A stretch of 64,000 nt of DNA from the NCBI RefSeq assembly GCF_005576615.1, contig NZ_CP040330.1, positions 372,001-436,000 on the forward strand, given 5' to 3'. The notes beneath the pieces were generated by a model that saw nothing but the letters and a program-made list of their open reading frames with translations, was not told the origin of the DNA and searched no databases. Shown piece after piece: positions 52,994-57,040 of this stretch. A program made the position numbers and the translations under genes. The first letter of the stretch is position 1; every line of letters begins with the position of its first letter. The DNA comes from Natrinema versiforme. GTDB taxonomy: Archaea > Halobacteriota > Halobacteria > Halobacteriales > Natrialbaceae.

Positions 52994-53193
52994 CTCGAGC
53001 GCGCGGCCCCGATTCCGCCCGTTTTCTGCTGGCGCTTTTTGACGATAGCGACTGGTCCCGCCAGCCGCCCGGCCTCGAGTCCGCCGGCTAAGTGGGGGAT
53101 CGTCGGTGCCGAGACCGTGGAAGCTTTGATCCCGCCGAAATAGGCTGTACACATGCACACGCGAGTCCGCGGATTCGGGGGAGGGAGGTCGCC

Positions 53194-53652
53194 GTGATCG
53201 ACGACGTCGAGGGTCTCCTCGAGGAGATCGGGTTCGATCCCGAGACGAGCGTGTTGACCTACCGGCAGGCGCAGGTGCTCGCACTGCGCGAACGCGACGT
53301 CTCGCAGGCCGACATCGCCGACGCGCTCGGGACCTCGCGGGCGAACGTCTCGTCGATCGAGTCGAGCGCCCGCGAGAACGTCGCGAAAGCCCGCGAGACG
53401 GTCGCGTTCGCCGAGGCGCTTCGCGCACCGGTCCGGGTTCGGGTACCCGAGGGAACCGACCTCTACGACGTGCCCCAGTTGGTCTACGACGCCTGCGACG
53501 AGGCCGGCGTCAAGGTCGATCACACCGCGCCGGACCTGATGAAGGTCGTCAGCGACGCCGCAGGGTCGGCCGTCACCGGGCGACAGGTATCGACGCCGCT
53601 GATCGTCGGGGTGACCTCGGAGGGGATGGTCCGCGTTCGCCATCAGGACTGA
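53194..53652 (+). CDS. Tfx-family DNA-binding protein
   Basis: The 152-residue regulator has an N-terminal helix-turn-helix (LTYRQAQVLALRERDVSQADIADALGTSRANVSSIE) like sigma-70 region 4, then the archaeal Tfx C-terminal domain (VRVRVPEGTDLYDVPQLVYDACDEAGVKVDH). Tfx of Methanothermobacter binds a molybdenum formylmethanofuran dehydrogenase promoter. The start is a GTG; GGAGG lies 7-8 bases upstream, an unusually clear ribosome-binding site for this window. The target is unknown. Confidence 0.9.
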   Translation: MIDDVEGLLEEIGFDPETSVLTYRQAQVLALRERDVSQADIADALGTSRANVSSIESSARENVAKARETVAFAEALRAPVRVRVPEGTDLYDVPQLVYDACDEAGVKVDHTAPDLMKVVSDAAGSAVTGRQVSTPLIVGVTSEGMVRVRHQD

Positions 53653-55030: not shown

Positions 55031-55993
55031 GTGTACGGTCCGATTCGAGTCGCCGGCTACCTCGCGTTGCTGGTGACGCCGGCCGCATTGCTTCTCGGCG
55101 CCGCCCGTGCGCCGCCGGAGCTCCACACCGGGACAGTGGGCATTCCGCTCGGGGTCGCCCTCGCCGGCACCGTCGTCGCCGCGACGGAGCCCCGGCGACT
55201 CCTCCGGCTCGAGGGGCCCGGACTCGCTCGAGCGGACGCCGTCGACGCGGTCGCGGTCGCGGCCGCGGCGGTCGTCACGTACGGACTGAGCGTTCACGCC
55301 GGCGTCGGCCCAGTCGTGGCCGCCGCAGTCGTCGGCCTGCTCGTCGGCGTCGGGCTCCCCCGGATCGACGGCGCGGCCTACTGCGGGACGTTCGTGGGGA
55401 TGGCCTCGCCGGCGCTGTTTCCCTCCCTCGAGTCGGTCGCGATCGCTGGGGCGATCGCCGGCCTCGCGTTCGTCGCGACGACGGGCGCGTTCGACGGCTT
55501 CGGCGGCAAGTACGGGACCATCGCGCTCTTCGGCTGCATCGCGACGGCGGCGCTGTTCGACGTCGATTACGCCGCCGCCGGCGGCCTCGAGCCCCGACTC
55601 GTCCCGCCGGTCGTCCTCGTCGCCGTCGTCGCGGCGGTCGCGACCGTCGCGCTGCGGACCCGCGGTGGGGCCAGTTCCGTCGTCGCTTCCGCCGCAGTCG
55701 GGGTGGTCGCCGGGGTCGCGTTTCCGTCGGTGCTGCCGGAATTGGGGCCGACGCTGGCCGCAGTCGCCTTCTGTGCCTCGTTCGTCGGGATGTCGAGCGA
55801 CGAGCGGCTGTCGGCCGCGCAGATCGCGGCCGCCGGCCTCCTCTCCGGCCTCGTCTACCTCGCGGTCGCGCCGGCCCTCGCCGGTTCGGGCGGCAAACTC
55901 GGAACCACCGCGTTCGTCTCCTGTCTCGCCGTCGCCGGCGCGGTTCGCCTCTCGGCCGTCGGCCGCTCGCACGTCCGTCGGTCGACCCAGTAG
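55031..55993 (+). CDS. Membrane protein with internal duplication (putative novel transporter)
   Basis: The 320-residue protein starts at a GTG and is hydrophobic throughout (about ten helices). Two halves are related: residues about 98-175 contain YCGTFVGMAS (118-126) and GGKYGTIAL (158-166); residues about 218-305 contain FCASFVGMSS (248-256) and GGKLGTTAF (287-295). The motif spacing is the same in both (about 42 residues) and the offset is 130. Such repeats are usual for transporters and channels with pseudo-twofold symmetry. I do not recognise the family. Gene 56138 follows on the same strand. Confidence 0.8.
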   Translation: MYGPIRVAGYLALLVTPAALLLGAARAPPELHTGTVGIPLGVALAGTVVAATEPRRLLRLEGPGLARADAVDAVAVAAAAVVTYGLSVHAGVGPVVAAAVVGLLVGVGLPRIDGAAYCGTFVGMASPALFPSLESVAIAGAIAGLAFVATTGAFDGFGGKYGTIALFGCIATAALFDVDYAAAGGLEPRLVPPVVLVAVVAAVATVALRTRGGASSVVASAAVGVVAGVAFPSVLPELGPTLAAVAFCASFVGMSSDERLSAAQIAAAGLLSGLVYLAVAPALAGSGGKLGTTAFVSCLAVAGAVRLSAVGRSHVRRSTQ

Positions 55994-56137: not shown

Positions 56138-57040
56138 GTGTCCCGACTTCGCGACACCCTCGCGGACCTGATCGACGAGCGGTTCCGAACGGCGGTCCTC
56201 CTCGGACTCGCGTCGATCCCGTTTACCGTTGCCCTCTCGTGGGAGTCCGCGCCGACGTCGTTTTCGGCCGAAGCCGTCGTCGCAGCCGGTCTGCTCGCCG
56301 GCCTCCACTACGCCGGCCGCTCGAGCGAGAACGCCGACGTCGGCCTCCTCGAGGGGCTTCGGTACGGCAAGCGACCGGCCGTGAACCGCCGGGCCGGTGT
56401 GGTCGTCGGCGCCGTCGGCTCCGCGCCGGCAGTCGGCTGGGCGATCGGTTACATGCTCGAGCGCGCGTGGTCCCTGTCGGGGTGGCTGGGAGCGGCCGCC
56501 GCTGCCCTGCTCCCGGCCGTCGTTCCGCTTCTCGTCGCGCTCTTCGCGCTGGCCGGCGGCGTCGGCGCGGCGGTCGGTGACTGGCTGGTCACGCGGGTCG
56601 ATCGGGCTCGAGACAGGGCCCGGTCACGGGCGGAGCCGGACGCGGACGGCGACGTCTCCGGCTGGTGGCGCTGGGTCATCGCGTATATCGTCTTCGCGCC
56701 GGCGGTGTTGCTCTACACGTTCGGCGTCGGACCGGAGAGCGGTGCCGCGTTCGCCCTCTCGGTGCTGGCGCTGCTCGTGTTAGTTCCGTTCTCCCTCTTC
56801 GTCGCCGTCGCGCTCTTCGAGGACGCGGTGACCCTTCGGGAGGTGGGACGCGACCGAGGCCCCAACTACTGGGCGTACGTCGGCGCGCCGCTGGCCGCCT
56901 ATGCCGTCGTGTATCTGGTCGCGACGGCGCTGGCGTCGCCGAACCCGTCGGGAGACGGTGTGTACGGGTTCGTCGTCGCGCTCTGGATTTCCTCGGCCGT
57001 CTACCTCAGCTACAGGCGTCGATACGTTGGAACGGCCTGA
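56138..57040 (+). CDS. Conserved haloarchaeal membrane protein
   Basis: The 300-residue protein has a GTG start and about seven to eight hydrophobic segments, an Arg-rich loop in the middle (RVDRARDRARSRAEPDADGD) and AVNRRAGVVVGAVGSAPAVGWAIGYML. No motif is known to me. It follows the duplicated membrane protein after 144 bases and may be cotranscribed, though CAATAGCGG-type text upstream might be a promoter. It converges on ubaA. Confidence 0.7.
   Translation: MSRLRDTLADLIDERFRTAVLLGLASIPFTVALSWESAPTSFSAEAVVAAGLLAGLHYAGRSSENADVGLLEGLRYGKRPAVNRRAGVVVGAVGSAPAVGWAIGYMLERAWSLSGWLGAAAAALLPAVVPLLVALFALAGGVGAAVGDWLVTRVDRARDRARSRAEPDADGDVSGWWRWVIAYIVFAPAVLLYTFGVGPESGAAFALSVLALLVLVPFSLFVAVALFEDAVTLREVGRDRGPNYWAYVGAPLAAYAVVYLVATALASPNPSGDGVYGFVVALWISSAVYLSYRRRYVGTA

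Follow-up and report, generated by a model that had tools for sequence, protein, structure and literature searches.

The gene at positions 55031..55993 (+) of the window, the whole stretch of 64,000 nucleotides analysed here, encodes a protein of 320 aa with a GTG start that belongs to a new, unnamed family of a known general kind. Reading its role from the genes that accompany the family in other lineages, we consider it close to an even chance (a probability of about 0.48) that this repeat protein carries formate or a small anion like it, as a channel or transporter that stands in for FocA. A more specific proposal, which we put forward tentatively, is that formate channels evolved independently a second time in these proteins, on an inverted-repeat fold that has not been described before and that derives from an antiparallel heterodimer; they would replace FocA/FdhC in many formate-using clostridia and work alongside formate dehydrogenase (FDH) in Halorubrum. 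The gene is labelled 'hypothetical protein' on a Natrinema plasmid, is single-copy in the genome of the window, and its product has the start MYGPxxxxGY common to its close relatives.

The protein consists of an N-terminal part, residues 1-66 (55031..55228, +), with two extra helices (3-26 and 37-52), followed by repeat 1, residues 67-178 (55229..55564, +), with helices 67-89, 94-108, 113-122, 133-149 and 160-175, and repeat 2, residues 188-319 (55592..55987, +), with helices 188-210, 216-234, 239-252, 262-279 and 289-319 in the opposite predicted orientation. The initial annotation had claimed a two-fold internal repeat, and this proved real in every comparison made. Residues 68-190 and 191-320 are 37% identical across 108 columns; the Smith-Waterman score of half against half was 171, compared with 47.7 +/- 7.6 for shuffles (maximum 84, n=2000), 16 SD above; BLAST gave an E of 2e-21; and hhalign of the alignments of one half and the other returned a probability of 99.9% (E 2e-31). 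Sequence comparison confirmed in this way that the halves are homologous, with a repeat far above chance, and the homology spans the whole of residues ~67-178 and ~188-319, beyond the two motif blocks from which the repeat had been recognised.

Those blocks were correctly placed. The first, CGTFVGM (residues 118-124; 55382..55402, +), lies where repeat 1 breaks after its short third helix, and G119, F121, G123 and M124 are invariant in an alignment of 37 fused sequences. In the same alignment, K160 of the GGKYGT block (residues 158-163; 55502..55519, +) is also invariant, as are G253 and M254 of CASFVGM (residues 248-254; 55772..55792, +), and K289 of GGKLGT (residues 287-292; 55889..55906, +) is kept in 35 of 37. 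The spacings from Cys to Lys are 42 and 41 as claimed, the offset being 130 from Cys to Cys and 129 from Lys to Lys. The idea that the paired cysteines form a motif failed, and with it a candidate role in metal binding, because Cys248 is not conserved and the position of Cys118 is a Thr in the minimal clostridial N-halves. What lasts across the family is GxFxGM, relaxed to GxxxGM in some of the split halves, together with GG(K/R)xGT, and the invariant residues of the family are Gly, Phe, Met, Lys, Ser, Arg and Ala. In split C-halves the K289 position is often R, A or G. The copies from an actinobacterial MAG (L035) and Cyanobium (L037) form a divergent pair in which the motif of the second repeat reads GGIAGA or GGDLGA, with the first Lys kept and the second lost.

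The AlphaFold2 model of the whole protein is confident (pLDDT 92.5, pTM 0.91) and has 12 helices, and the five-helix pattern is alike in both halves: in each repeat a short third helix runs up to GxFxGM, and the fifth starts with GGKxGT. The lone C-half of a clostridial pair was modelled with the same five helices (pLDDT 94.6). When K+R were counted per loop in the 37 sequences, the 13 segments alternated between 1.70, 2.30, 0.81, 0.62, 1.19, 1.35 and 2.73 for the inside-type segments and 0.16, 0.11, 0.05, 0.14, 0.08 and 0.05 for those of the other side, a positive-inside pattern which places both ends inside and the halves antiparallel. The protein would therefore be a 12-helix membrane protein with a 2+5+5 inverted repeat, the topology being taken from the charges; two homologous halves, an odd helix count and an opposite loop-charge pattern are all found in it. 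This bears out the initial view that the protein is rich in helices, sits in the membrane and has two-fold pseudo-symmetry, and refines it, since by their loop charges the halves are antiparallel.

A scan of one genome per species recovered 48 relatives, about 30-80% identical, from haloarchaea, Clostridia, Chloroflexota, Spirochaetes, an actinobacterium, Cyanobium, Izimaplasma and Flavobacteria. In the whole-genome sample the family was present in 68 of 242 Halobacteria genomes (26 of 73 genera), which is about a quarter of haloarchaeal genomes, in 21/299 genomes of a clostridial phylum, in 10/198 spirochaete genomes and in 3/247 of those from Bacteroidota. Bacteroidota and many Clostridia encode the two halves in separate, neighbouring genes, N-type first, and as a rule these overlap or sit within a few dozen bases of each other. 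The smallest clostridial pairs (about 117 + 136 aa) are without the two N-terminal helices, which puts the core of the family at five plus five helices. The terminus that opens the split N-halves is basic and of the inside type, and split C-halves show the same charge alternation but starting outside, so that the pair is predicted to assemble as an antiparallel heterodimer, to which an inverted repeat corresponds in the fused form. Two clostridial MAGs carry a split copy besides a fused one. When single halves were placed in a tree, the N and C types mostly separated, and one clade without N-type domains took in 78 of the 87 C-type domains (9 were misplaced); support was weak, and the duplication looks ancestral. 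Treponema-type spirochaetes (L090-L103) have versions of 507-529 aa in which the repeat core is followed by an extra C-terminal part of ~200 aa without a Pfam match; by eye this part is soluble-looking and possibly a sensory (GAF-like) domain. Two fused copies occur in tandem, ~0.3 kb apart, on contig 94 of genome G539 (L062/L079).

In agreement with the initial annotation, which knew no named family with this pattern, searches of Pfam, NCBIfam and PDB profiles gave no convincing match. No Pfam or NCBIfam model matches the window protein, no family was found in two or more of the 37 fused relatives at a threshold as loose as E 0.1, and the split halves had no match above cut-off in either collection. 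TM7S3_TM198 (E 0.003), DUF1453 (E 0.006) and 7TM-7TMR_HD (E 0.004), each seen in a single member, were rejected as chance. Neither PHROGs nor the PDB, the latter searched by sequence and by profile, gave anything convincing, and literature searches by motif and by topic found nothing on the family. Foldseek, run with the whole model against PDB and BFVD and with a single half against PDB, gave nothing at E<=0.001, which is compatible with, and not proof of, a new fold; matches to CLC and ZIP were dismissed (TM about 0.2 or less).

A second-look aligner gave TRIC as the best hit of the half (Z 6.9, under the level meaning kinship). Urea transporters (SLC14) and Amt-Rh proteins also consist of two five-helix halves in an inverted repeat, and here the structural resemblance was weak, the scores being likewise under the kinship level, with dvUT at Z 5.9 (rmsd 4.6, 160 aligned), AmtB at 5.5 and Rh at 5.4; in contrast to these families, the repeat protein has no UT/Amt signature and no corresponding Pfam, NCBIfam or PDB sequence match. 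In Fluc/CrcB and SMR, antiparallel related subunits are encoded by adjacent genes in some lineages and by a fused inverted-repeat protein in others. The repeat protein follows the same antiparallel-pair-to-fused plan, although with five helices per half rather than their four and without a sequence match.

The neighbours that tell most about the protein are formate dehydrogenase genes, found beside its relatives in other lineages. In clostridial genomes with a split pair the order is often LysR, SelD, FdhD, N-half, C-half, MoeA, MoeA and GroES, with variants, and NCBIfam confirmed SelD, FdhD, MoeA, MobA, FDH alpha (TIGR01591) and formate-tetrahydrofolate (THF) ligase as neighbours. FDH alpha or FdhD is near the family gene in 14 of 25 clostridial-phylum loci, and one further locus has the ligase alone; the ligase of L126 and L130 lies 3.7-3.9 kb off and shares the strand of the family gene. 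A spirochaete copy (L025) adjoins FDH alpha. Among Halorubrum and its relatives, the family gene overlaps FDH alpha or stands directly in front of it in L020, L021, L026, L027, L029 and L036, the distance in L148 is 0.8 kb, and each of the 12 FDH alpha genes of Halorubrum type (>=85% identity to the query) found in 242 genomes adjoins a family gene. The L021 enzyme scores over the TIGR01591 cut-off. The Halorubrum frame has 733 codons and no in-frame stop, so it is probably not a selenoprotein. FDH alpha frames are seen in L112 (8023-9603, -) and L113 (8022-9602, -); that of L112 covers only profile positions 146-672 of TIGR01591, and both probably continue upstream through an in-frame TGA read as selenocysteine.

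FocA, FdhC and NirC belong to the FNT family (PF01226), whose members are pentamers of six-helix protomers with a central pore in each. The repeat protein resembles them in being a small polytopic membrane protein linked to FDH genes, and its conserved Lys would be compatible with an anion path; it differs in its predicted two five-helix halves plus two N-terminal helices, compared with six helices per protomer, and in having split and fused forms. PF01226 matched none of 37 fused members at E<=0.1 and none of 21 split halves, so that on sequence the protein is not an FNT member, although it may work like the FNT channels. Among genomes of the clostridial phylum, FdhD is present in 16/21 with the family and in 60/120 without it (p=0.033, kinship uncorrected). 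Of the FdhD-positive ones, FNT is found in only 1/16 with the family and in 29/60 without it (p=0.003, also uncorrected for kinship and optimistic because the genomes are related). A general exclusion between FNT and the family was not seen in haloarchaea, where FNT is common (204/242) and co-occurs with the family gene; in the window's taxonomic family outside its genus the FNT trend had p=0.056, from genomes that are not independent.

Formate genes are absent from the flanks (mostly 5-7 kb on each side) of the copies in Natrialbaceae, Treponema, Flavobacteria and Cyanobium. A short-chain dehydrogenase and a ThiF-type gene flank the gene in Natrialbaceae, while outside this group the flanks of loci not linked to FDH vary, and at least five haloarchaeal genomes with the family gene have no FDH-alpha-like match. 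Assigning formate to the Natrinema-type organism of the window is an extrapolation from homologues, and since the window's group, Treponema and Flavobacteria are without an FDH link, the cargo may vary between lineages. Upstream of the repeat-protein locus lies a gene for a Tfx-type DNA-binding protein (53092-53652, +; TFX_C E 1.8e-29), which is conserved in syntenic Natrialbaceae loci; in methanogens, Tfx is a regulator of formylmethanofuran dehydrogenase genes. The gene at 56138-57040 (+), which had been suggested for a neighbourhood survey, encodes a membrane protein of 300 aa with a DUF5518 match at residues 17-74 just above cut-off (29.1 vs 27 bits). Among the loci of relatives just a 72-residue match in L004 was found, and we rejected this gene as a conserved partner.

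If the repeat protein is a formate channel, its two homologous five-helix halves would insert antiparallel, and the broken helices at GxFxGM and the GGKxGT turns would, by analogy with other inverted-repeat channels, meet mid-protein and form the pathway. In the first GGK turn the Lys is invariant, and it could help to hold the anion together with the residue that answers to it in repeat 2, usually Lys or Arg. In the FDH-linked clades the protein would move formate or formic acid, the job done elsewhere by FocA/FdhC. Members of the FNT family have themselves been assigned functions on gene linkage of this sort (PMC5525234).

The same neighbourhoods bear on other explanations. The main rival keeps the inverted-repeat channel or transporter but gives it as cargo molybdate/tungstate or a selenium oxyanion, which FDH maturation requires, and operons with SelD, FdhD and MoeA would fit such a supply; many clostridial loci indeed have SelD, FdhD, MoeA and MobA, and some SelB, rather than FDH itself. 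We think this improbable, however, since fused forms stand directly beside FDH alpha, including the Halorubrum enzyme that is probably not a selenoprotein, and other copies are flanked by formate-THF ligase or FDH (L126, L129, L130). No ATPase or binding protein was seen alongside, and a molybdenum or selenium cargo offers no ready reason why the family and FNT, a formate/nitrite channel, should be inversely related. A wider version of the formate reading, a general channel or transporter for small solutes (a short monocarboxylate, bicarbonate/CO2 or another small anion) of which formate is one cargo in some lineages and which carries something else in Natrialbaceae, Treponema and Flavobacteria, seems to us unlikely, though nothing specific counts against it. 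In its favour are the uneven context, with an FDH link in clostridia, in Halorubrum and in a single spirochaete and not elsewhere, and the Treponema-type versions with their C-terminal extension.

Equally improbable to us as the supply of molybdenum or selenium is that the protein transports nothing and is a membrane partner of FDH or hydrogenase, as an anchor or a quinone/electron-transfer module, so that the linkage would reflect a redox complex. Genes for [FeFe]-hydrogenase/HydB lie upstream in L016/L111/L141 and RnfC-RnfD downstream in L015/L110. RnfA/E, NqrD/E and RnfD/NqrB are also inverted repeats with short broken helices, and fold resemblance is weak, of the half to RnfA (Z 5.9) and NqrD/E (NqrE Z 5.1) and of the whole protein to RnfD (Z 4.2). 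But the actual RnfD encoded beside the family gene in L015 is recognised by PF03116, whereas the repeat protein has no Pfam match to these families and no conserved Cys pair for a mid-membrane cluster. Against a redox role also stand the lack of a conserved His pair or CxxC cofactor pattern, the frequent position of the family gene beside maturation genes and not the enzyme, and the Natrialbaceae and Flavobacteria loci without such enzymes nearby.

A role in formate transport would matter for the clostridia, where FNT is absent from 46 of the 76 FdhD-positive genomes tested; the conserved, FDH-linked family gives a directly testable candidate for the route by which formate crosses their membrane. 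Its coexisting split and fused forms provide a clean case for inverted-repeat membrane proteins evolving from antiparallel pairs, in a family to which no relative is known. If the formate reading is true, this family would give microbes a second route for formate across the membrane, and one not described before.
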